Source: Flavobacterium johnsoniae UW101 | GTDB taxonomy: Bacteria > Bacteroidota > Bacteroidia > Flavobacteriales > Flavobacteriaceae | Direction of reading: 5' to 3' | DNA: 64,000 nt | Assembly: GCF_000016645.1 (NCBI RefSeq) | Contig: NC_009441.1 | Coordinates: forward strand, 3,844,001 to 3,908,000 | Part shown: positions 48,529 to 62,020 of the stretch, in pieces | How positions within the stretch are numbered: position 1 is the first letter of the stretch | Layout of the letters: every line of letters starts with the position of its first letter | Position numbers and translations under genes: made by a program | The notes under the pieces: model-generated | Told to the model about the DNA's origin: nothing | Databases searched by the model: none | The model's input: the letters and a program-made list of their open reading frames with translations, nothing else

Positions 48529-48564
48529 AAAAAAACGCTTCTCGATTGAGAAGCGTTTTTTTTA
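48529..48564 (-). terminator. Terminator at the end of the T6SS operon
   Basis: A strong perfect stem (about 16 bp, AAACGCTTCTC paired with GAGAAGCGTTT, loop GATT) is flanked by A and T runs of eight to nine. It overlaps the tssF stop codon at 48562. Confidence 0.95.
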
Positions 48565-50397
48565 ATTTACAAATATTCGATAAGGAAACACATTTGAGGA
48601 TCTGTTTTTGAGCTGTTTCATAAAACTATCGCATAAATAATCCCATTCTGTTTCTGATAAATAATCTTTTTCAACAGGGTTTACCTGCAGATGAATATCT
48701 ACTGTACGACTGAAACCAGCTTTTACAGATATTTCTTTTCGCGTGCCTTTTTCTATTCTAATGTCTGTTATACAACTTTTGAAATGATTAAATCCAAAAG
48801 CTTTTATATCAGCAAATGTTACAATTCGGCCGCGTGTCAGCAAAGCATTTCTGTACGCTAAAATACGGTCTTTGTTATTCTGTTTGTTCATACCGCCAAC
48901 AGTATTTGTAATCAGCACCGACTCTTTGCTTACAAAAAGCATGTCATCTTTGGCCTCTAAAACTGTTCCTGCTTTTATATCGTTTCCTTCTTCGGCACAT
49001 GTTGACCAGTAATGTATAGAAAATGATTTTCCTATAGATTCATCAAACTTTGGCTTAATCATTAAATAAGGATCATTATTTTTAGAAAAGCTGCTTTCTC
49101 TTGCCTGCTGTTCTACAGAAGCTAAGAGCTGATTGATTTCGACTAAAGAGCTGTTCATAAAATCTTTACCTAAACCAGCAAAAGAAGAACTTTCGTCTTT
49201 TAGTAAGTCTAATACATTTTGAAGCAATTCTGATGCGCTTCTTGAATCGAATCTGGAAACTCCGCCTGTTCGTAATACAGCATTTCCTTCTTCAATTACA
49301 CCATCTTTAAATTCTTTTATCTCATAATGATTATTGAATCCATCGATAACAGTGTCAACATCGAGATAAATATTGTTATCTGTTTCTAATGCAATATAGG
49401 ATAAGAAGTTACCAAGCGTTTTATTTATAATGTGTTTCTTTTTGTTGATTACCGGAAAGCAATTTGCTGTAAAAGAAACGTTATCTAATATTTGAGGAAT
49501 CAGCGATTCCGGGAAAATCATTTTTACCCAAATAATAGGATTGTCATTTCCGCTGGTTACAGCTTCAAAATATTTATATTCTTCACTGTATTCATTAATT
49601 GCTTTGTGCTTTAAAGAACCTTTCAGGGTATAGAAATTATCAAAATAAAATTCATTTACCTCCTGCATAATTTCACTCAAATGTGTGTAATTACGGTTGA
49701 TAATATTCTCAATGTCTATATTGTTTACAGGAACATTATAGCCTTCTTCTACTGTAATCTGCACATCATCCTGAAAGCATTTCATTTGCTTTAAATAGTA
49801 ATGAAACATCTCTTTCTGATGTGTATTTTTAATGTCGATATACAACATTAAATCTTCTATCTCTTCAACTTTCGGATTCGTTAATTCAATTCCTAAGAAC
49901 ACAACACCTGAAGGCAGTGAATGTTTGTAATCTCGTATGGCATCTTTATAAAAAAGATTCGAAATTTCGAACAAATTGCGTTCATAAGCTACATATTTTA
50001 TTTCTGCCGAAGACAGCTTTACTTCTAACGTTGGCGATAAAGCGATCTCTTTAGTAATTGGTGCTAAAGGATTGTAAATATTATGAATTCTTCGACTTGC
50101 CGACATTTGGTTCTGCAATGAAACTTTCATACCATTCTCTATTGGTAAAGCATGTAAAATGGCTCGTGCAGGTTTTACTCCTGCTGTAACTTCAGGAAAC
50201 ATAATTTCCAGAACTCTTTCTACAACTCTTGTTTTAGAGTCTTCGAGTTCGTGGGCTACTTTTTCTAATTCGTAAGACAATGCATTAAGCATCATTGATA
50301 CAACAGGATCAAATGATGTTTCCATCTCAACATCAGAAAAGCCCCATGATCTAGCCGCTCTTTTTAGCACTCTGTCTTTTATTCGATCTTGTCTCAT
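48562..50397 (-). CDS. tssF: Type VI secretion baseplate subunit TssF
   Basis: This cytoplasmic baseplate wedge component of the T6SS has 611 residues, the family's size. It opens with the TssF-like segment RAARSWGFSDVEMETSFDPVV and a conserved region around RVLEIMFPEVTAGVKPARAI. C-terminally there is IDIHLQVNPVEKDYLSETEW and the ending SSNVFPYRIFVN. It is the last gene of the T6SS operon and is placed after the effector/immunity array, overlapping the preceding lipoprotein gene by 4 bp. That puts an exchangeable array inside the structural operon. The assignment rests on N-terminal resemblance and on the surrounding T6SS genes. Confidence 0.85.
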   Translation of the reverse strand: MRQDRIKDRVLKRAARSWGFSDVEMETSFDPVVSMMLNALSYELEKVAHELEDSKTRVVERVLEIMFPEVTAGVKPARAILHALPIENGMKVSLQNQMSASRRIHNIYNPLAPITKEIALSPTLEVKLSSAEIKYVAYERNLFEISNLFYKDAIRDYKHSLPSGVVFLGIELTNPKVEEIEDLMLYIDIKNTHQKEMFHYYLKQMKCFQDDVQITVEEGYNVPVNNIDIENIINRNYTHLSEIMQEVNEFYFDNFYTLKGSLKHKAINEYSEEYKYFEAVTSGNDNPIIWVKMIFPESLIPQILDNVSFTANCFPVINKKKHIINKTLGNFLSYIALETDNNIYLDVDTVIDGFNNHYEIKEFKDGVIEEGNAVLRTGGVSRFDSRSASELLQNVLDLLKDESSSFAGLGKDFMNSSLVEINQLLASVEQQARESSFSKNNDPYLMIKPKFDESIGKSFSIHYWSTCAEEGNDIKAGTVLEAKDDMLFVSKESVLITNTVGGMNKQNNKDRILAYRNALLTRGRIVTFADIKAFGFNHFKSCITDIRIEKGTRKEISVKAGFSRTVDIHLQVNPVEKDYLSETEWDYLCDSFMKQLKNRSSNVFPYRIFVN

Positions 50398-50747
50398 TTT
50401 TTTATTCTTTGCATATACAATGTGTCAGATTCTTTTCTAATAAATCTATACTTTAAATTTTCGCCATGTTGTGAGCGAACTGTAACAATAGTATCTGTTT
50501 TATAACCATCACAAATAAAAATTAAGTCTCCTATAGACTCTGAATTATTTTCAATCTTAAAATATCCATTTTCATTACTAAATGTAGATTTGAAATTCTG
50601 ACTGAAATTTTCCTTAACAAATACTCGGTTTATTGGTTTTCTTGAAGTTTCATCATACACGTATCCACTATAACATTTTTGTAATTTGGTGCAATTTATC
50701 AGCATCATTAAAACTGGCAGTAGTATATATTTTTGATTCTGTTTCAA
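50394..50747 (-). CDS. Small lipoprotein with carboxypeptidase-regulatory-like fold, putative immunity protein
   Basis: The 117-residue protein has a lipobox (LMMLINC, Cys19). The mature part resembles a CarboxypepD-regulatory/Ig-like beta-sandwich: YSGYVYDETSRKPINRVFV, then FSNENGYFKIEN. The start codon is TTG, directly after an in-frame TGA, inside a 109-bp direct repeat whose other copy provides the start of the gene at 50891. It overlaps tssF by 4 bp. Position after effector genes and periplasmic anchoring make an orphan immunity role plausible. No matching effector lies directly upstream; a remnant gene does. Confidence 0.6.
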   Translation of the reverse strand: MKQNQKYILLPVLMMLINCTKLQKCYSGYVYDETSRKPINRVFVKENFSQNFKSTFSNENGYFKIENNSESIGDLIFICDGYKTDTIVTVRSQHGENLKYRFIRKESDTLYMQRIKK

Positions 50748-50849
50748 TCAGCAACTATTTAATTATTAATTCCCATTCGTCAGCTTTGTATTTTTCTTGT
50801 ACTTTTCCAATTTTTGGTTCTGATTTTGATTCTTTATAAAATAATTCTT
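50740..50849. repeat. Direct repeat, copy A
   Basis: This copy matches 51372-51481 (offset 632 bp) along about 109 bp with three substitutions. It contains the last 30 or so codons of an immunity-like gene, its TAG stop and the TTG start of the next gene. Confidence 0.95.
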
Positions 50850-50907
50850 TATAACCTTCACTGTCCGCTTTTAAAAATTTCGTATAAAAGCTACTCCAGA
50901 AAAACAT
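50755..50907 (-). pseudogene. Remnant of a T6SS immunity-like gene (C-terminal end only)
   Basis: A 50-codon frame, ATG at 50907 to TAG at 50755, overlaps the end of the gene at 50891. Its last about 31 residues (KELFYKESKSEPKIGKVQEK onward, ending DEWELIIK) are nearly identical to the C-terminus of the membrane protein at 51387-51947. The N-terminal two-membrane-helix part is absent. It is best read as the scar of a duplication followed by deletion. Whether the short peptide is made is unknown. Confidence 0.75.
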
Positions 50908-51379
50908 TTATAGTATCGAAATTCTCAGAACTATCTTCAAAATCTTTGTTAGAAGGAATACTCTTATAATAAAGATTACAATAATATTCGCCTCTATTCT
51001 TTCCTGCGTTAATTTTTGATGCAGTATTTTTAAAATCAAAAAATTTGTATTTCTTATCTCCTTCTGTTTCAATTATGAGAGTATCCGACTTTAAAATTTT
51101 AGATTCGATATAATATTTAGTGTCTGAATCTTTAATTCTTTGATATTCTACTTTCTTAGCTTTTCCATCTTTTCCAATTAAGATTATTTGAAAGTTTTTT
51201 ACCATTTTCGTTTTACTTATATTTCTATAAAAAGAAATATAAATTCTTCCGCCATCTGCAATAAATTCAGATGAATTACAACTCTCATTATGATTATAAT
51301 CTTTTATATTATAAAAGATATAACGAAATCCAAGAACAATAAGAATTACTCCTAATAAAATTGATAATATTTGTTTCAA
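50891..51379 (-). CDS. Membrane-anchored uncharacterised protein, putative immunity protein
   Basis: No family is recognised. The 162-residue protein has one N-terminal membrane helix (about 3-24, ILSILLGVILIVLGFRYIF). A soluble, probably periplasmic, Lys/Asp-rich beta domain with two cysteines and the stretch GRIYISFYRNISKTKM follows. The start is a TTG immediately after an in-frame stop; the next Met is at residue 59 and would lose the anchor. It begins 7 bp after the stop of the membrane protein at 51387. A second protective protein, or an orphan immunity gene, is the likeliest role by position. Confidence 0.6.
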   Translation of the reverse strand: MKQILSILLGVILIVLGFRYIFYNIKDYNHNESCNSSEFIADGGRIYISFYRNISKTKMVKNFQIILIGKDGKAKKVEYQRIKDSDTKYYIESKILKSDTLIIETEGDKKYKFFDFKNTASKINAGKNRGEYYCNLYYKSIPSNKDFEDSSENFDTINVFLE

Positions 51380-51481
51380 TCAGCAACTATTTAATTATTA
51401 ATTCCCATTCGTCAGATTTGTATTTTTCTTGTACTTTTTCAATTTTTGGCTCTGATTTTGATTCTTTATAAAATAATTCTT
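51372..51481. repeat. Direct repeat, copy B
   Basis: This is the partner of 50740-50849. Here it forms the true 3' end of the intact immunity-like gene and the TTG start of the gene at 50891. Confidence 0.95.
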
Positions 51482-51947
51482 CATCATAACTTTTAATTAC
51501 TTTAGATACGGAATCTTTGATTGTAACTTTAAAATTTATTGGAAATCGAACAAATGTATTATTGTAAACTGGCAGGAAAATGCTATTCTTTTCGTTTGGT
51601 TTTAATAGTATAGAATCTGTTTTATTATAAAAATCAACAATTTTTAAATTATTTTTTTTTATCTCATCTTTAGTGTATTCAAAATTGATAATTACATACA
51701 CTTTTTTATTAAACTGATTATTGAACAAAATTGTTTTAAAGTTTTGCACTTGATATTCATTCACCTGCTGAATATCTTCTCTTTTATCCGTCGATGAATT
51801 CCAAAGTACTGCTAATAAAACAACATATATAATCACTGTAATGATTACTGTACAAATTGCTATTAAAATCTTTCTTTTAGTCTGCCATTTTTTTAAATAA
51901 ATGAAAATAATTTCTAACAACAGAATAATCAATAAAGTATAAATCAT
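51387..51947 (-). CDS. Two-helix membrane protein, putative immunity to the zinc-protease effector
   Basis: No named family is recognised. The 186-residue protein has membrane helix 1 (about 2-17), a basic cytoplasmic turn (KKWQTKRK), helix 2 (about 27-50), then a periplasmic domain of about 135 residues. The C-terminal tail is Lys/Glu-rich (KESKSEPKIEKVQEKYKSD). It overlaps the stop of the metalloprotease effector gene by 4 bp, the arrangement expected of an effector/immunity pair. The topology would protect the periplasmic side. Its 3' end is duplicated as a remnant further on. Confidence 0.65.
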   Translation of the reverse strand: MIYTLLIILLLEIIFIYLKKWQTKRKILIAICTVIITVIIYVVLLAVLWNSSTDKREDIQQVNEYQVQNFKTILFNNQFNKKVYVIINFEYTKDEIKKNNLKIVDFYNKTDSILLKPNEKNSIFLPVYNNTFVRFPINFKVTIKDSVSKVIKSYDEELFYKESKSEPKIEKVQEKYKSDEWELIIK

Positions 51948-53596
51948 TGTATTTTAAGTTTTGTTAACCATATCAGACCTAATACGTCCTTTTCTGCAGC
52001 AATTGTTCTTTTTAAATCAGCCCCTGCAACAAATTTCCCTGCTTTATCAGTAGTATTATAATATTTCATTAGGTCTATTTCACCATTCTTAGGATAATAT
52101 TCTCCTGAAGTTTCAGGCATTTCATCCATATGAGTCATTTTACCCCAAAAGGTTTCATCTCCCTTTATAGGCTTAGTATCTTGAGGTAAATAATATGAAC
52201 TTCCTTTGTGCTGCCATGAGAATGCTGTTCCTGCATAGGCTTGTAAAAATTCATGTCCTAATTCATGAGCAGCTGTTTCTTTAAAATTTGAAACTTCATC
52301 ATAATACGTATTTGAATCTTTTTCAATATGATAGCGCCATCCGTTGTGAGCATCATTTTTCCAATCATGTTTAATATATCCTGCATTATAAGATAATCTT
52401 TGTATTACACCTAAATCTGGAAGAGCATTTAACAAATCATCATCTAAATTACCATCATCATAGCTTGCTCCAGGATTACCTGACCGCATCCATCCTCCAT
52501 TAGTATTATACACCAACGGTAGAGAATTTAGAGCATTTTTAGTAGTATCAATTGGTTTTATAAATACTTCATAAGAATCAATAATATTTACATTATTACC
52601 AACAATATTATTTTTATTTCTTCCCCAATATCTTTCCAGACCTTCAAAAGCAAGTTTTTTTAATTCTTCAAAAGATTTTGTTCTAGTCTTTAAAACCGGT
52701 TGTGCAGGATTTAATTCCGAAGCCGGTATTTTATCCCAATCGCAAATAGTTGTTTTATACCCTTTAAGAGGATCAGTTCCTGTAGTCGGGGTAAACGTTT
52801 CATAACTTGACTCCTCAGGTAAATTATAAGTATAACAATTCAAACCTTTTGTACCACCATCCCTTAAATCTACTCTTAAGGTTATATCAATTCGTTTCTT
52901 GCTTCTATCAATTTTTACGTCAGTCCATTGTACTTGAGTATAATTAGTAGAAAAATCTATTGTCAAACTTTTTTGCTTATCACCTTTGGTAGCCGTAATT
53001 CTAGCCTTTAACTTCTTATTATTGAATTTGGTGCTGTCATAAACATCATTATTATCAAAACCATCCCAATGAATAACATATTCACCTTCTTTAGTGTAAT
53101 CACCTGGTGAAGATGCAAATTCATTATAAATTTTTTGAAAATCCCAAATTTTAGATAAAATTGGTTCTTGTGTTGATTTGGGTATATTTGAAAAGATTTT
53201 AGGAAGTTCAGAAGCTTTTACTATAATCGTTTGTAAGTAGGTCATTTGATAAATAATTTCATCATTTTCACCTATTATTTGAAAATTTAAAGAATCAATT
53301 GATGTCTTCTTTAAACCAAATTTAAAGCAGAAATAAGGATTTTCTGCATTATTCTTAAAATCTAAAATACCCAAAGGAACAACTGACTTTGTTTTTTTAT
53401 CTAATTCAAATGTAATATCAAAATCATCATTTTTTCTTTGAGGGATATCTTTCGGATCTCCGTACTTAATTCCTGTGTCACTCGTCTCGGTTACAGCCTG
53501 ACCAGAATTATATACAATATTACCTTCAGAATAAATATTGTGATCACCTCCGGTAGTTTTTGTTATAGTACCTCTAACTAATCTTATTCTGCTCAT
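51944..53596 (-). CDS. Putative T6SS effector: zinc-metallopeptidase with shared N-terminal tag
   Basis: The 550-residue protein lacks a signal peptide. Residues 1-49 match the start of the effector at 54194 at 41 of 49 positions (GGDHNIYSEGNIVYNSG inside). Residues about 60-240 form one or two beta domains (GEYVIHWDGFDNNDVYDSTK at 171-190). The C-terminal part has a zincin motif, AAHELGHEF, with His444, Glu445 and His448; His463 is a possible third ligand. This fits an antibacterial peptidase or peptide amidase, but the target is unknown. The next gene (4-bp overlap) is the candidate immunity protein. Its DNA and that of the next three genes is visibly more AT-rich than the structural T6SS genes. 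Confidence 0.75.
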   Translation of the reverse strand: MSRIRLVRGTITKTTGGDHNIYSEGNIVYNSGQAVTETSDTGIKYGDPKDIPQRKNDDFDITFELDKKTKSVVPLGILDFKNNAENPYFCFKFGLKKTSIDSLNFQIIGENDEIIYQMTYLQTIIVKASELPKIFSNIPKSTQEPILSKIWDFQKIYNEFASSPGDYTKEGEYVIHWDGFDNNDVYDSTKFNNKKLKARITATKGDKQKSLTIDFSTNYTQVQWTDVKIDRSKKRIDITLRVDLRDGGTKGLNCYTYNLPEESSYETFTPTTGTDPLKGYKTTICDWDKIPASELNPAQPVLKTRTKSFEELKKLAFEGLERYWGRNKNNIVGNNVNIIDSYEVFIKPIDTTKNALNSLPLVYNTNGGWMRSGNPGASYDDGNLDDDLLNALPDLGVIQRLSYNAGYIKHDWKNDAHNGWRYHIEKDSNTYYDEVSNFKETAAHELGHEFLQAYAGTAFSWQHKGSSYYLPQDTKPIKGDETFWGKMTHMDEMPETSGEYYPKNGEIDLMKYYNTTDKAGKFVAGADLKRTIAAEKDVLGLIWLTKLKIQ

Positions 53597-53689
53597 AATG
53601 GATCTGTCTGTAATTTTAATTCAATTAATTTAATATTTACTTTGGGGAGATTTAATTATTTTAAAAGTGATTAAAACTCATGGACGATT

Positions 53690-54187
53690 TTACTTTTTAT
53701 CATTCTTACAATTGTATAAAATAGTATCTTTTAAATTTCTTTGCATATCAAAATACGAAATTTTGGCTGTCCAATCTTTGTCATTTCCGCATTTATCAAT
53801 CGTAATTTCTCCAATACCATTTTTTGAATAGTAATCTTGTAAAACCTGACTTGTTAGTCCACCTGGATCATCTGCATTTTCAATGAAATAGGATGTAGAA
53901 TTATTTTTCTCGTAAAGAAAAACAGTAAATGAATAAGCATCTTTGTTTATAGCAGCATCTTTCAAATTTTGATTTTTATATTTAATAAGCATATCTAGTA
54001 TTTCTTTATCTCCATGAGGAGCATTCTCTACTAAAATGCTTTTATAAATAAATTTTTCTCCTTCGCGATCTCCTCTGTCAAAAAAACCTTCTCCGCTGTG
54101 TTTTTCTAAATTTACAAACGTAACTTTCTTCTCATGGCAAGAAGATAAAAATGCTGTTATGATTATTAAAAAAAATAGTTTTTTCAT
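53690..54187 (-). CDS. Lipoprotein, putative immunity to the first effector
   Basis: No family is recognised. The 165-residue protein has a lipobox (AFLSSCHEK, Cys17) and a small, charged mature domain with residues such as FIENADDPGGLTSQ and two further cysteines near the end. It begins 6 bp after the stop of the effector gene at 54194 and is separated from the next effector by 93 bp, so it pairs with the former. Anchoring in the periplasm suggests that the effector acts there. Confidence 0.65.
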   Translation of the reverse strand: MKKLFFLIIITAFLSSCHEKKVTFVNLEKHSGEGFFDRGDREGEKFIYKSILVENAPHGDKEILDMLIKYKNQNLKDAAINKDAYSFTVFLYEKNNSTSYFIENADDPGGLTSQVLQDYYSKNGIGEITIDKCGNDKDWTAKISYFDMQRNLKDTILYNCKNDKK

Positions 54188-54193
54188 TCTTTT

Positions 54194-55840
54194 TTAAAAT
54201 TTTGGCCCCCTCATCATTTTTGCTCGTTCTTCCTCTGCCCATTTTTGTGCTTTTGCACGTTCTTCAGATTTTCTTTTGTCTGTTCTTTCTTTTTTACCTT
54301 CTTTAATATTACCTGAAAATGTTCTTTCGAAAGTCATTTTAGTGATAAAAGGCTTGTATCCTCTTAAATGCTGTAAAACAAACCATGTTACAAAAGTTTC
54401 TCCAACACTTGGTATAATATTAAAAACTTTTTCCATATCGGGTAAATCAAGTCCAAAATGATCCCATAGAGTTACTTGATATTTTCCTGTATAGTTGTCT
54501 TTATCAAATTTTAATTCTTGTAAAAGTACTTCTGCAGCCCAAATATCATTTAAAGCAATAGTTAAACCACCTGTTACATTACTTAAATTGTCATAAGAAT
54601 ACATTGGTTTAGTAAAATACTCTTTATTCTTCGTTTTTCGATTTCTCGTTATGGTTTCAGGACTTCCGAAATAAGGTTTAGCATCTTCTGCTTTTTTCAA
54701 ATCTGCCACATTTTGCTTTAACTGTTCTGCAATATAATCCTCAACATTCATACAATATTTTTTTGTATTCGGATTATCACTTACATATTTAGTTAATATT
54801 CTATCTTCATAAACACCACCTTCATTTTTTTTGAATTTAGCAATCATACGCTCAATATTTCCTTGTAACTCGCCAGAAGCAAAATATAAAGTTGCTGTCT
54901 GCTCAAAATCCCAAAACAAACTCTCTGTAGAAAGTTTATCAAATAATCGTACATCTAAACCTGTTGAAATTTCCGGAATTAATTTCTTTATAATTGGAAT
55001 GTTAACTTTGTAACTAGTCTTATAGCATTCCTCTTTGCTGTATTTGGCTTTATTTTCGACATTGTCCTGATGTGAAAAAGAGGCATGCTTTTGATTATCA
55101 AAACCTCCCTCTTCATACTCTTTTTTAAATTTTTCAAGGACATCCTTAGAATATACTTCTCCAATATGCTTTACACCTTTTCCGTAGGTCATATCGTCAG
55201 CAATCTTTGAGCCATCACTGTTTAATCCAGGCATTTTGTAGCGGTCAATGACTATGGAACCTACTTCCAGATAATTTTTCCTGTCTGCTGGATATTGAAC
55301 ATTTTCACTTTTATAACTGCAGCGAAAATAAAGTTCTAAACATTTATCCTGTTCTTCAGCAATTAATGATCCTAAACCTGTTAAGTTTATTTCTTGTACT
55401 ATTTTATTATCTGTTACTTTGGCAACAAGAACTTGTTTTTTTGATTTTGTATTAATTAATTTAATCGCATCATCTTTATCTTTCCTGCCATCTTTATTTG
55501 GACCTTCTTCTTTTTCATGATTGTCTTCATCAAACAAGGATAAAAATACTGCATTACCATTAGGGATTTCTTTAGTTTTTAAATGAAAAAAAACTGTCAT
55601 ACCTGGTACTGCTCTTTTTATTTTTTTCTGTCCTTCTCTATCCAAAGCCCACCAGCCGTCAACGAAATGTAATTTTGAAACAGGTGGAGAACTTTTAGGT
55701 TCTCCGTAAGTAATCCCTGCATCACTTGTTTCGGTAACAACTTTACCAGAATTATACACAATATTACCATCAGAATATATATTGTGATCGCCGCCTGTAG
55801 TTTTTGTTATAGTACCTCCAACTAATCTAACCCTGCTCAT
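54194..55840 (-). CDS. Putative T6SS effector with shared N-terminal tag, directly downstream of vgrG
   Basis: The 548-residue protein starts 3 bp after the vgrG stop. Residues 1-49 are the tag shared with the zinc-protease effector (MSRVRLVGGTITKTTGGDHN). The middle (about 55-220) looks like the beta domain seen in such effectors but is not similar at word level. The C-terminal region (about 425-520) contains LTIALNDIWAAEVLL, LWDHFGLDLPDMEK and HLRGYKPFITKMTF. This reminds me of DUF3289-type domains found in polymorphic toxins, although I cannot verify this. The end is a basic Lys/Arg-Glu helix. The enzymatic activity is unknown; no catalytic motif is clear. The lipoprotein gene following it is the likely immunity gene. 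Confidence 0.65.
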   Translation of the reverse strand: MSRVRLVGGTITKTTGGDHNIYSDGNIVYNSGKVVTETSDAGITYGEPKSSPPVSKLHFVDGWWALDREGQKKIKRAVPGMTVFFHLKTKEIPNGNAVFLSLFDEDNHEKEEGPNKDGRKDKDDAIKLINTKSKKQVLVAKVTDNKIVQEINLTGLGSLIAEEQDKCLELYFRCSYKSENVQYPADRKNYLEVGSIVIDRYKMPGLNSDGSKIADDMTYGKGVKHIGEVYSKDVLEKFKKEYEEGGFDNQKHASFSHQDNVENKAKYSKEECYKTSYKVNIPIIKKLIPEISTGLDVRLFDKLSTESLFWDFEQTATLYFASGELQGNIERMIAKFKKNEGGVYEDRILTKYVSDNPNTKKYCMNVEDYIAEQLKQNVADLKKAEDAKPYFGSPETITRNRKTKNKEYFTKPMYSYDNLSNVTGGLTIALNDIWAAEVLLQELKFDKDNYTGKYQVTLWDHFGLDLPDMEKVFNIIPSVGETFVTWFVLQHLRGYKPFITKMTFERTFSGNIKEGKKERTDKRKSEERAKAQKWAEEERAKMMRGPKF

Positions 55841-55843
55841 ACA

Positions 55844-57652
55844 TTAGTAAGATTTAGATTTTTCGGCGCTGTTAATTTGCATTTCTTTTTTAGAGTGTTT
55901 ATTTATCCCTCCTTCACTGCTTGTATCAATTCCTTTAACTCCAACTTCCTGTCTTTCTTTAGCCGTATGAGATTCAAGATTTCCTTCAATGTTTTCCATG
56001 AAGTTTCCTGTAACATTAAGCATATGATCACCTCCTACAGTAGTATTAAGCATCATACCTACAATACTCATTTTGTCGGCTCCGGCACTTTCTGTAATAT
56101 TCATTCCTGCATTAGCAGTAATATTTTGAGAAGCATTAAGATTGATGTTTTGTGCGTTTAGATCAATGGTGTTGTTTGCTGTAATAGTTATGTTACCTCC
56201 AACAGTATCCAATAGTATCTCATTACCGTTCTTATCAGCAATTAAGATGCTCTCATCTTCTGTGAATTTTATTACATGACCGCTTCTCGTATGAATCGCT
56301 TTAATGTTATTCTGTGCATCTGCATAACCACTTGAATCTTGTCCGTTATACTGCGCACCAATTACATAAGGATTCTGGACGTTATTGCCTTCAAAACCAA
56401 TTAAAACTTCTTCTCCGATTTCAGGAACAAAATAAAATCCTTTTCCTGAACCAGAATAAGGCTGCACCATTCTTATCCAATCTGTAACTGCTGTACCGCT
56501 TGCACCATAAAATTCTACTCTTACACGTCCTAATCCTTCAGGATCATTATTATCTTTTACTTGTGCAGGCTGTGTTTCGGCTTTGCCATAAACAAATACA
56601 TTTGTATAGTGTGGTGCTGACACATCTGCAGGAATTGCTTTAAACTCACAAGAATAATTTCCATGCACCTGAGAATGATGTACAACTTCAATAGCAATTA
56701 ATTCATGTGCTACTGTTTGGTTTACTATTGTAAATACCTGTCCAAGACCAATTGGAAAATAAGAAATACCGCTGTAATAAACACTGTTGGCATCACTGCC
56801 CGCAGTCTGCAGTTTTATCATTTCATCAAGTTCGTCTTTGTTTGTGGCATTTGCGGTATAAGCCCCATTATTTAAATCAGAATTTGCTACAGTTCCTTGA
56901 TTATAACCTACAATAGCGGCAAAGCTGTCTTTACTTCCAGATGAAGTCTTAGGTGCTGACTCACGAAAAGTTGCTACATTTTTATAATCATAACCGTTCA
57001 GCGAAATTTTATGTGAAGCCATATTAGCTTGTATCTTAAAGCTGTGTAATGAAGCTCCATTTATAAGCTTGGTCTGGCTGCTTTTTGTCTGTCCGAACTG
57101 CATACGCATTCCGTCAAAATAAAACCATTGTCCATAACGTGCTGCTATTCTTTTTAAAAATTCAAAACTAGTTTCGTTATATTGTAAAAGATTTTTAAAT
57201 TCTTTAAGATAAGTCGATTTAATAGAATCTCTTTGATAAAATTCTCCCGGTCCTTCAGCAAAAATCCCCAATACGATATCATCCATACTGCGGTCTTTAA
57301 ATGTTCTTGATTTTTTCATATCATCAATAACAATACTGTGACTTACACCAGAAACGTGTAATCCTGCCGGACTTCCATCAACATCAATCGATGAAAGTTC
57401 AGTAATTATACCTTTGCTCATTAATCTGATCCCAGTAAGACTTTTAAAAGTAAAAATTACTTCGTCTCCAAGATAGCTTCTAAGAGCCTTAGCCTGATCT
57501 GCCGGGTTAATTACGGCTTTACCTGTATATTGCCAAACAAAAGAAAAATGATGATGATCGGCCATTTTTTGAGATAGCTTTAAATCATAATAAACAACGT
57601 TTTGGGTAAAACTTCCTATAGTTATATGTACTTGTTCTGAAAAATGTGCCAT
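55844..57652 (-). CDS. vgrG: Type VI secretion spike protein VgrG (TssI)
   Basis: This trimeric needle tip of the T6SS carries effectors. It has 602 residues. The gp27-like N-terminal part includes YNETSFEFLKRIAARYGQWFY. The gp5-type OB domain begins about 365 (DNNDPEGLGRVRVEFYG, then VLIGFEGNNVQNPYVIG). The C-terminal beta-helix spike, about 445-560, has repeats such as NITITANNTIDLNAQNINL. A flexible tail of about 44 residues follows. No enzymatic extension is present, so cargo must be bound in trans. It sits 38 bp after an hcp gene and 3 bp before the effector gene. A PAAR-type tip protein was not seen in the window. Confidence 0.95.
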   Translation of the reverse strand: MAHFSEQVHITIGSFTQNVVYYDLKLSQKMADHHHFSFVWQYTGKAVINPADQAKALRSYLGDEVIFTFKSLTGIRLMSKGIITELSSIDVDGSPAGLHVSGVSHSIVIDDMKKSRTFKDRSMDDIVLGIFAEGPGEFYQRDSIKSTYLKEFKNLLQYNETSFEFLKRIAARYGQWFYFDGMRMQFGQTKSSQTKLINGASLHSFKIQANMASHKISLNGYDYKNVATFRESAPKTSSGSKDSFAAIVGYNQGTVANSDLNNGAYTANATNKDELDEMIKLQTAGSDANSVYYSGISYFPIGLGQVFTIVNQTVAHELIAIEVVHHSQVHGNYSCEFKAIPADVSAPHYTNVFVYGKAETQPAQVKDNNDPEGLGRVRVEFYGASGTAVTDWIRMVQPYSGSGKGFYFVPEIGEEVLIGFEGNNVQNPYVIGAQYNGQDSSGYADAQNNIKAIHTRSGHVIKFTEDESILIADKNGNEILLDTVGGNITITANNTIDLNAQNINLNASQNITANAGMNITESAGADKMSIVGMMLNTTVGGDHMLNVTGNFMENIEGNLESHTAKERQEVGVKGIDTSSEGGINKHSKKEMQINSAEKSKSY

Positions 57653-57690: not shown

Positions 57691-58086
57691 TTAATCTAAA
57701 GCAATCCAATTGTTTGAGAATTTAGCGTCGCCAAAAGTCAATTCTTTTGCTACTAGCTCCATAGTAATTCTCATTGGTATTTCGGTAGTGCTTGTAAACT
57801 GTTCATCATAACCGACACAAAATGCCTTAGTAAACGTAAGTTCTTTCATTTTACTTAAAGCATCTCTTCTGTAAAAAACAATTTTTCCGTCTTTGGTTAA
57901 ATCACCATTTAACATCCATGATAAAAAATGGCTATTCTGACTTGCTTCAATAATCATTCTTATAACCCCGCCTTTTGCATTACCGGTAGGTTTACTTGTT
58001 GTATCAATTTCTTGTTTAAAACCAATATTAAATTCAAGAACATTATATTCTTCTCCGTCTATATGTAATTTAGATAAAAAACTCAT
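57691..58086 (-). CDS. Type VI secretion tube protein TssD (Hcp), copy 2
   Basis: The 131-residue beta-barrel tube subunit of Bacteroidota type starts MSFLSKLHIDGEEYNVLEFN. The next Hcp features are GGVIRMIIEASQNSHFLSWM and ELTFTKAFCVGYDEQF. It is clearly homologous to the copy at 58237 but only moderately similar. It has its own place next to vgrG, so it may be a cargo-specialised Hcp. A terminator lies between the two copies, so expression may differ. Confidence 0.85.
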   Translation of the reverse strand: MSFLSKLHIDGEEYNVLEFNIGFKQEIDTTSKPTGNAKGGVIRMIIEASQNSHFLSWMLNGDLTKDGKIVFYRRDALSKMKELTFTKAFCVGYDEQFTSTTEIPMRITMELVAKELTFGDAKFSNNWIALD

Positions 58087-58236: not shown

Positions 58237-58623
58237 TTATACCCAAGCATTATCAAATTCTCCTCCACCCATCGAAATTTTACGAGCAGAAATCATAAAA
58301 GTTTCAGTTAATGGATTTTCACTGTTATGATCAAAGTTTTCTTTGTACTTAACCATGTAAGCCTCTGTAAACTTTAGCTCTTTTAAAGTAGCATTTGAAT
58401 CACGTTTGATGAATTTTACTGACCCGTCTTTTCTTTCGAAATTGTTAGTCATCCATTCAAATAATTCAGTACTTCCAGTTGATTCAACTTCGATCATGAT
58501 TCTTCCTCCGCGTGTTACCGTAGATGGACGCCCAGAAGCATCTGTTTCTTGAGCTAAATCATAACTTACGTTTAATACTTTGTAATCTTTTCCTGCTACT
58601 GTTAATGATGTTAAAAACGACAT
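58237..58623 (-). CDS. Type VI secretion tube protein TssD (Hcp), copy 1
   Basis: The 128-residue inner-tube protein begins MSFLTSLTVAGKDYKVLNVS. Conserved parts are GGRIMIEVESTGSTELFEWM and ELKFTEAYMVKYKENF, ending GGGEFDNAWV. This closely matches the common Bacteroidota Hcp, so it is probably the main structural tube subunit. It has a long AT-rich leader (58624-58804) likely holding a strong promoter, and a terminator right after it. Confidence 0.93.
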   Translation of the reverse strand: MSFLTSLTVAGKDYKVLNVSYDLAQETDASGRPSTVTRGGRIMIEVESTGSTELFEWMTNNFERKDGSVKFIKRDSNATLKELKFTEAYMVKYKENFDHNSENPLTETFMISARKISMGGGEFDNAWV

Positions 58624-60649: not shown

Positions 60650-62020
60650 TTATTTTTGTTCGTAATCTGTATCCCATTCTGTTCCGTCGTCACCTTTGTG
60701 ACCATCCATTTTAATAAGGAAGTTTTTAGCAGGGAAATAAGGTTTCATATGGATATCCATATAAATTCTGTCTTTTTGAATTGGATCTTGTTCAAATCTG
60801 CGGATTTCAAAATTCTCAATTAATTTATCCGGACCAGTGATTCCGTCAAGGAAAGCAACGATCTGATTCATAATCTCTTTACGTGTTTTAGCAGTAAAGT
60901 TTTCGAAAGCACGACGATTAAGGAAATCCATTAATACTTTAGTCACATAATCAAAAACACGAACTACAGAGTACGTTTGCAATCCTAAATTATCTCCGCT
61001 GAATAATGTTTTAGCAGAAAAAGCCATTACTTTTCCGTATTCATTTACCATCGGAACTAATCCTAAGTTTTCAAGATTAGCGATTTCGCTTTTCTTAAGA
61101 TCAAATTTCACTCCGTCAACTTCATTAATTCCTCCAAATTTCTTACCTGCAGTAACCTGAGACATTAATGTTTTGTATATTTTTCCTGCTAATGCAGCCG
61201 AAGGCGCAACGTGTAAATCTTCGTTTTCTCCAATTTGATCAAATCTGCCGCGGCCAACAAGCCAGTTGCAAGTCATGATTACGTTAGAACGATAAACATC
61301 TCCTCCAGTCAATGAAGCAGCATCAAACATTTCCATTACATCATCCGGTTCATCAAGATGTTCGAAATCTGTAACTAACATTACTTTGTTTTCATGCGCA
61401 ATTTTTGCCCATTTTTCAATCACTTTGTTAGATCCTAAATATCCTGGAATTACCAAAATACCGTAGTTATTTTTAAGATCTAAACGATCGTAATTATCAA
61501 CTAATTCTGAGTGAATTGCATCAATAAAACGAGTGTTATCAAGGTCTTTTAACTGATCTAATTCTGCGTTTACAATTGTAACATTTTTTACTTTGTCAGA
61601 TTCTGTGTTTTTAAAGAATAAAGCCAGTGTTCTGTAAGCAGCTTCAATTTCTCTTGTATCTTCAACAGCTTTAGCAAGGTTTTTTTGAAGCAAAGCTTCA
61701 GATTCTTTGCATTTATCTTCACTTTGTGCCACCATATCAGTCAAAGCTTCATTATTGCTTAAAACTGAAGACCAAAGTTCTAAAGTCTTTAAAAGAGTTT
61801 CTCTTTCTTTTGCTTTGTTTACTTCACCTAAAAAGATTTTTCTTCTTGCTTTTCTATCCGGGTTAAGGTTTTGAACTCCTTCAATTGCCATTTCTAATAA
61901 ATCAAAACCGCCGTATTTAGCCAGTTTTTCAACATTTTTTTCAATTGAAATTCCTTTTACTGCTTTTGGTTCTAATACTGCTGTATCAAGATCACCTTTA
62001 TATGCTTCTTTGCTTGACAT
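60650..62020 (-). CDS. tssC: Type VI secretion contractile sheath large subunit TssC (VipB)
   Basis: This 456-residue sheath protein pairs with TssB. It has VAFLDGITGPDKLIENFEIR near the C-terminus and MQ-like sheath motifs such as YGILVIPGYLGSNKVIEKWA. An earlier part reads NPDRKARRKIFLGEVNKAKE. The end carries the YPAKNFLIKMDGHKGDD segment. It is 20 bp after tssB, with the usual order tssB-tssC. The assembled sheath contracts to drive the Hcp/VgrG needle. Confidence 0.95.
   Translation of the reverse strand: MSSKEAYKGDLDTAVLEPKAVKGISIEKNVEKLAKYGGFDLLEMAIEGVQNLNPDRKARRKIFLGEVNKAKERETLLKTLELWSSVLSNNEALTDMVAQSEDKCKESEALLQKNLAKAVEDTREIEAAYRTLALFFKNTESDKVKNVTIVNAELDQLKDLDNTRFIDAIHSELVDNYDRLDLKNNYGILVIPGYLGSNKVIEKWAKIAHENKVMLVTDFEHLDEPDDVMEMFDAASLTGGDVYRSNVIMTCNWLVGRGRFDQIGENEDLHVAPSAALAGKIYKTLMSQVTAGKKFGGINEVDGVKFDLKKSEIANLENLGLVPMVNEYGKVMAFSAKTLFSGDNLGLQTYSVVRVFDYVTKVLMDFLNRRAFENFTAKTRKEIMNQIVAFLDGITGPDKLIENFEIRRFEQDPIQKDRIYMDIHMKPYFPAKNFLIKMDGHKGDDGTEWDTDYEQK

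Follow-up and report, generated by a model that had tools for sequence, protein, structure and literature searches.

MIX and FIX are N-terminal markers of the type VI secretion system (T6SS) that precede polymorphic toxins (PMC10435454, PMC11925235). RIX is a short N-terminal region before diverse toxins, and secretion of Tme1 requires its first 60 residues; RIX is also found on secreted adaptors, including one for Tae4 (PMC10435454). The segment considered here is of this known kind, and appears distinct in its family, its size, its taxonomic range and a putative tip-matching code. It forms the N-terminus of two proteins encoded in a 64,000-nucleotide stretch of the Flavobacterium johnsoniae UW101 genome (contig NC_009441.1, positions 3,844,001 to 3,908,000 of the forward strand; the window, whose numbering is used unless contig positions are named), in the surroundings of a Bacteroidota-type T6SS cluster with two Hcp (TssD) genes and genes for VgrG, TssF and TssC. 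Very probably the segment, called the tag below, is a short beta-helix-like T6SS delivery module of Flavobacteriales that docks cargo on the tip of the cognate VgrG. Computation establishes its N-terminal position, the unrelated cargo behind it, its linkage to vgrG, its association with the T6SS and its covariation with the VgrG tail.

The closest described systems, as characterized in the parts of the reports drawn on here, each share something with the tag. Like RIX, it is a short N-terminal segment on diverse toxins and on proteins encoded beside Tae4. RIX is an arginine-rich region of Vibrionaceae, whereas the tag belongs to Flavobacteriales and tracks the VgrG tail, the two being set apart by the description of RIX only; the tag is a single run of some 50 residues, in which arginine is the commonest residue at columns 3 and 5 only. 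The DUF2345 beta-helix can be part of VgrG, a separate protein, or the front of a toxin that it joins to VgrG (PMC10673891), and the likeness is that of a needle-like domain at the toxin front, free-standing in some loci. The grouping of DUF2345 correlates with the toxin (PMC10673891), in contrast to the tag, which has some 45 residues and tracks the VgrG tail but hardly the cargo. None of 41 aligned tags matches PF10106 (DUF2345), with the reservation that most matches above E 0.1 are lost in the HMMER filters. WHIX resembles the tag in that the effector is docked on the C-terminal tail of a neighbouring VgrG, and differs, by description only, in being bipartite and a predicted deep-cavity tail cap (PMC12135965), where the tag is a short spike-like segment at the N-terminus. 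For MIX and FIX, Pfam and NCBIfam reported no match on the 41 tags, the presence of MIX or FIX models there being unchecked. PAAR and DUF4280 tips are spike-associated domains able to carry toxins, and F. johnsoniae itself has a DUF4280 protein, Fte1 (Fjoh_3275), that has been described both as PAAR-like and as a metallopeptidase effector of the T6SS (PMC5014421, PMC9846239). The tag differs from them in that neither family (PF05488, PF14107) matches it and in that cysteine is outside the three commonest residues at every column. A literature search found neither a Bacteroidota N-terminal domain for the delivery of T6SS cargo nor a description of the segment; subscription papers and preprints are mostly outside its coverage, and a prior description is possible there.

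One front on unrelated proteins

The two open reading frames (ORFs) in focus, at 54194-55840 (548 aa) and 51944-53596 (550 aa), are both on the minus strand. The vgrG gene is 3 bases upstream of the first, and the second follows in tandem, behind the 548-aa gene and a gene for a 165-aa protein whose lipoprotein signal is weak.

55694..55840, minus strand: tag of the 548-aa protein (residues 1-49), 41/49 identical to the second tag; its start is 3 bases behind vgrG
54194..55693, minus strand: cargo part of the 548-aa protein, an ORF with relatives over most of the cargo in four distinct tagged loci
54329..54922, minus strand: DUF3289 domain of that cargo (PF11692, E 2.1e-18, residues 307-504)
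53450..53596, minus strand: tag of the 550-aa protein (residues 1-49), 41/49 identical to the first tag; profile A1
51944..53449, minus strand: cargo of the 550-aa protein, a putative zinc metalloprotease whose HExxH is invariant in four aligned sequences
52253..52267, minus strand: HExxH motif, residues 444-448 of the 550-aa protein, seen in the sequence
55844..57652, minus strand: vgrG, 602 aa (PF04717, E 4.2e-22; PF05954, E 1.6e-15)
55847..56056, minus strand: last 70 residues of VgrG, the putative docking site, on the grounds of covariation with the tag and lag-8 periodicity

The near identity of the two N-termini, pointed out in the preliminary description, is borne out: the best of 10,000 shuffles gave 12/49 identical residues. 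At the DNA level 124 of 147 bases are identical, and 20 codons differ, 12 synonymously and 8 with a change of residue. Past the segment the proteins are indeed dissimilar, BLASTP giving one real region (residues 1-79, E 2e-17) and otherwise E values of at least 0.68. Zinc-protease character had been proposed for the 550-aa protein, and H444, E445 and H448 are invariant in it and three relatives. The C-terminal region of the 548-aa protein, previously described as unassigned, is not so, because it matches DUF3289. The segment, earlier recognised as none of the known markers, is covered by no Pfam or NCBIfam model. All Pfam matches of the 550-aa protein are insignificant, a profile of its family gave nothing in the Protein Data Bank (PDB) at E up to 5, and an AlphaFold2 model from four sequences (pLDDT 31.1, pTM 0.29) was left unused; PADLOC gave nothing for either window protein or for one protein of about 114 aa discussed below. 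Three explanations of the shared front were considered and rejected: chance similarity of two N-termini; one recent duplication, in view of the 12 synonymous changes among the 20 codons and of four further copies in the genome; and a prophage origin, on which the sole bearing evidence is a search of viral contigs that gave 114 pattern matches and no relative.

ORFs re-called around profile matches and scored with a 41-row profile gave 134 hits, one of which, a VgrG, was dropped; removal of duplicates, defined by identical first 200 residues, left 113 unique tagged ORFs (10 shorter than 200 aa, some cut by contig ends). With duplicates included, the tag starts at residue 10 or before in 129 of the 134 hits and by residue 30 in four more, where the choice of start codon is involved; the last is the VgrG. 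Directly behind vgrG, at up to 130 bases, are 66 of the 113, and a further 19 have one ORF of about 114 aa in between as judged by distance, which makes 85; 13 more are behind another tagged gene. The proposed profile search thus gave what had been anticipated, N-termini of diverse proteins beside T6SS genes, with 98/113 behind vgrG or another tagged gene. Nor is the segment joined to a single C-terminal domain. The 109 proteins with at least 80 residues past the tag fall into 29 C-terminal clusters, or into 18 when proteins with any stretch in common are grouped. Among 27 tagged proteins scanned, cargo over the Pfam cut-off includes Het-C, a Tle1-like lipase, muramidase, GH19, LysM, Peptidase_C15, DUF6765 and DUF3289; matches below cut-off include GIY-YIG, Ntox23, M43, Zn-PLC, DUF915 and Tox-MPTase2, and 11 have no Pfam match at the thresholds used.

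The matches are not mostly in genomes without a T6SS. TssD is present in 28/33 tag-positive Flavobacterium genomes against 28/216 tag-negative ones (odds ratio 38, Fisher p 1e-16), and in a phylum sample in 11/15 against 14/377 (p 7e-12). The T6SS marker PF05943 (VipB) misses the Bacteroidota type, that of F. johnsoniae included, and PF17541 was used instead for TssC; in 80 chosen genomes TssC was found in 37/48 tag-positive genomes (doubtful ones included), in 10/12 with TssD and no tag, and in 0/20 with neither. The reading of the segment as a tag is supported, since the matches are neither confined mainly to T6SS-free genomes nor tied to one C-terminal domain.

Six copies of the tag are encoded by the F. 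johnsoniae genome, two in the window and four more. Its six VgrG-like genes include five of T6SS type, each with a tagged gene behind it; the sixth, a weak match beside a PAAR gene, has no tagged ORF in the approximately 2 kb examined behind it. That sixth gene (G000:C1:3748312-3750253, contig positions outside the window), a distant VgrG relative behind which stands the one PAAR gene that exceeds the cut-off, probably belongs to another contractile system. Of 249 Flavobacterium genomes searched with the profile, 33 have the tag, the match in G290 (a 59-aa ORF) being doubtful. In a family-wide sample of 199 genomes, mostly one per genus, 7 match, one probably by chance (G062, a 2745-aa frame). 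In the phylum sample of 392 genomes 15 match, 13 of them convincingly, with 7 from Flavobacterium and 6 from another family in its order. The doubtful matches, which also include G617 (a 12,978-aa frame) and G643 (itself a VgrG needle), were kept in the genome counts, with G643 excluded from the set of 113. A scan of named genomes gave 26 loci from Flavobacterium, Capnocytophaga and one Flavobacteriaceae record. The earlier suggestion of a tag for Bacteroidota T6SS cargo therefore stands as to the tag and is too wide on present evidence as to the phylum, as all 13 convincing phylum matches are in one order. The count itself is by sequence comparison an underestimate, because divergent tags were detected behind vgrGs of tag-negative, TssD-positive genomes: among 12 such loci inspected from nine genomes (not all their vgrGs), the next gene has a divergent tag in five (E below 1e-3 in a small ORF set), a borderline one in two (0.003 and 0.016) and none in five.

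Covariation of the tag with the VgrG tail

A new feature of these loci is that, by sequence comparison, the tag tracks the tail of its own VgrG, rather than the VgrG core or the cargo. Distance matrices were compared for the 70 adjacent vgrG-tag pairs, of 85, in which VgrG exceeds 560 aa. Tag distances correlate with those of the last 70 VgrG residues at r 0.78, and at 0.75 when the core distance is removed (0/2000 permutations). The value is 0.32 for the core and becomes -0.04 with the tail removed; it is 0.18 for the cargo. When for each VgrG a partner was sought in another genome, the median rank of the tag among the 70 was 2 for the partner with the nearest tail and 23 for that with the nearest core. 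The same holds between islands of one genome: 33 within-genome pairs from 14 genomes gave 0.52 for the tail, 0.26 for the preceding segment and -0.18 for the core. Tags in tandem behave alike, in that 12 of 13 have a scored locus partner and in all 12 that partner ranked between 1 and 10 of 85 by similarity (five at rank 1, three at rank 2, and one each at 3, 8, 9 and 10).

A proposed place on the spike, and other explanations

Tags are variable, some of the 41 being only 22-30% identical to the first; V7, G9, G17, G46 and P48 nevertheless occur in at least 90% of them. No Pfam or NCBIfam family is common to more than one of the 41, and among the single matches is a VgrG model (E 0.024). When the 41-row profile was run against 177,635 PDB sequences, all 8 hits at E up to 10 were gp5/VgrG spike proteins (E 0.5-2.3), whereas a reversed 24-row profile gave 3 hits with no spike protein and a column-shuffled profile gave none. 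Profile-profile comparison of tag and VgrG needle scored 29.3; the best of 100 column shuffles reached 20.7, the reversed profile 21.5, the core 11.6 and the cargo 7.7. The periodicity of hydrophobicity is strongest at lag 8 in the tag (0.29; 133/5000), the VgrG needle (0.39; 4/5000) and the last 70 residues of VgrG (0.41; 4/5000), and the core value of 0.01 is no peak. A beta-helix or VgrG-needle character of the tag, which the preliminary description had missed, is thus indicated, if weakly.

We infer physical docking, with its stoichiometry, secretion, killing and immunity along the following lines. A tag of about 45 residues with VgrG/gp5 needle character, that is beta-helix octads, would attach the cargo at the C-terminal tip of the VgrG whose gene lies upstream; it would probably either pair with this needle or extend it. 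The cargo would then ride on the spike and be carried by sheath contraction into a neighbouring cell, where its variable C-terminal part would act, while the gene behind the cargo would protect the producer. Tag and tip would be the matched halves of a docking joint, and because they come as matched pairs each VgrG would load its own cargo while cargo domains swap behind the tag. A bolder version, which we hold only tentatively, is an address code in which the last 70 or so residues of VgrG and the roughly 45-residue toxin front are matched beta-helix halves, the toxin front completing the tip in place of PAAR, possibly with three toxin fronts per VgrG trimer. Since the toxin front would complete the needle tip, the toxins would then be structural parts of the needle, swapped by exchange behind the code.

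Several observations weigh against docking on the VgrG tip through a needle-like tag. The spike hits in the PDB are individually insignificant, a narrower 33-row alignment (A4) had no PDB hits, and the hhalign probabilities for tag and VgrG needle are low, at 31-55%. The lag-8 signal of the tag is modest, is one of 11 lags and was spotted before testing. With 33 sequences AlphaFold2 arrived at no confident fold for the isolated tag (pLDDT 47.3, pTM 0.15; model left unused), which agrees with a partner-dependent segment, though a shallow alignment could give the same. As to position, 12 of the 113 tags have no vgrG in the stretch, one has its vgrG 1270 bases off and two are at edges. Tag and tail are adjacent in DNA, and co-transfer could add to their correlation; in the test of distant tags described below the uncorrected correlation is high for the VgrG core too, and tail and core are told apart by the partial value only. 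Finally, TssC is missing from 8 of the 33 tag-positive Flavobacterium genomes, among them G247, which has four tags. These eight (G111, G203, G205, G240, G243, G247, G283 and the doubtful G290), five of which also lack TssD, retain vgrG before a tag in every case save G290, and may hold orphan vgrG-toxin islands whose machine was lost or never had.

The best of the rival explanations, unlikely in our view, is that the tag caps the spike tip and, as a short PAAR substitute, seals the VgrG trimer, with tagged proteins as structural tip subunits. The only solved relatives suggested by the weak profile match are spike proteins, all five T6SS vgrGs of F. johnsoniae have tagged genes with the sole over-cut-off PAAR gene beside the separate VgrG-like gene, and RIX is described as a substitute for PAAR and VgrG in some modules, in the part of that report used here (PMC10435454). 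Against a cap, a PAAR or DUF4280 family match is found on 0/41 tags, AlphaFold2 predicts no compact monomeric cone (at low confidence), and the genome has four DUF4280 PAAR-like matches, one at contig position 3915180, about 7 kb past the window end. In view of these proteins, and as Fte1 is itself a PAAR-like effector, a PAAR-like cap and the tag may compete or stack. A separate observation concerns one VgrG (L206:538-2373) whose tail is without the usual end and whose next protein, by eye, is DUF4280 PAAR-like and not tagged; from it, VgrG tails may sort into a tag type and a PAAR type.

Less probable again is that the covariation reflects co-inheritance of one DNA block, the tag being recognised by Hcp, the baseplate or the protein of about 114 aa. 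Tail and tag are adjacent, and that ORF lies between vgrG and tag in 19/113. Yet the correlation falls to 0.32 in the 80 VgrG residues just before the tail, and when tags were shuffled within the six genomes that have at least three islands the tail value of 0.69 was reached in 2/2000, compared with 152 for the preceding segment (0.28) and 686 for the core (-0.23). Because adjacency in DNA could mimic the covariation, second tags were also tested, 12 of them in 11 loci, 2-6 kb from vgrG and past another toxin, candidate immunity genes and other genes. They still match the tail: the correlations are 0.93 for tail and 0.80 for core, with 0.80 for tail given core and 0.03 for core given tail. That the segment matters as DNA, as a conserved 5-prime recombination arm for toxin cassettes with protein similarity a by-product, would suit the 84% DNA identity of the window copies over 147 bases and the change of cargo behind the tag; it is most improbable given the 12/20 synonymous codons, the persistence of V7, G9, G17, G46 and P48 among divergent tags and a protein-level match to the tail that persists over 2-6 kb. 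Least credible of all is a chaperone-binding or stabilising N-terminus dispensable for export, for while chaperones could be encoded by the small ORFs that separate vgrG from some tagged genes, 66/113 tagged genes have no intervening gene and the tag tracks VgrG, not cargo.

Neighbouring genes and the reach of the tag

The remaining features of the cluster are the candidate immunity genes and the T6SS components.

53690..54187, minus strand: 165-aa candidate immunity lipoprotein for the DUF3289 cargo, with homologs behind DUF3289-type cargo; weak LPAM_1 signal, below cut-off
51387..51947, minus strand: candidate immunity gene, possibly for a membrane protein; 4-base overlap with the protease ORF
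50891..51379, minus strand: further downstream gene, possibly for immunity; in three loci (L194, L112, L115) its homologs follow other tagged genes at 1.1-1.6 kb
50394..50747, minus strand: 117-aa CarboxypepD_reg-like protein (PF13715, E 2.8e-8), another candidate for immunity to the protease
57691..58086, minus strand: Hcp (TssD; PF17642, E 2.3e-44)
58237..58623, minus strand: second Hcp (TssD; PF17642 over cut-off, G000:C1:3902240-3902623)
60656..61945, minus strand: TssC (PF17541, E 2.1e-236, G000:C1:3904656-3905945)
48562..50397, minus strand: TssF (PF05947, E 6.5e-7)

Candidate immunity genes travel with the type of cargo, as far as homology indicates. Relatives of the DUF3289-type cargo are found in four other tagged loci (L072/L137, L066/L129, L114 and L100), and the family of 53690-54187 is directly behind it in all of these save L100. 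Homologs of 50394-50747 are near protease-type cargo in three loci (L105/L142, L051/L148, L049); one more, in L077/L138, is not behind a tagged gene. The gene at 51387-51947 has just one further match among the loci, 30 residues long and inside the window, in a short ORF (50755-50907) that is there 93% identical to part of it; this ORF is apparently a decayed copy next to the candidate immunity genes.

Some tagged proteins are short, 143-151 aa (L077, L067, L094), and consist of the tag and about 100 residues. A separate Tae4 amidase gene is behind two of them, L077 (E 9.6e-21; pair at L077:4521-5763) and L094 (E 1.4e-19; pair at L094:5760-6950). The gene beside the short protein of L067 looks similar to these Tae4 neighbours at its start, and the genes behind the short tagged proteins of L071 and L059 have no Pfam match. 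By analogy with RIX, the short proteins upstream of Tae4 are apparently tag-bearing adaptors. The family of about 114 aa between vgrG and the tagged gene, with 16 ORFs read of the 19 placed by distance, stands beside several cargo types (examples are L050:6648-6995 in the F. johnsoniae genome, L055:6522-6866 and L095:5173-5517); the three scanned have no significant Pfam match, and the protein is possibly an adaptor or chaperone. Two tag ORFs of 74 and 39 aa are free of cargo (L136:8001-8225 in Flavobacterium covae, and L118:4734-4853) and are apparently truncated remnants.

The tag offers a route, from sequence only, to new toxins in Flavobacteriales, since a tagged front behind vgrG would point to one even when the C-terminus is unfamiliar. 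It would also predict which VgrG carries which toxin, and the recognition of cargo by VgrG becomes testable with a peptide of about 45 residues and a tail of about 70.

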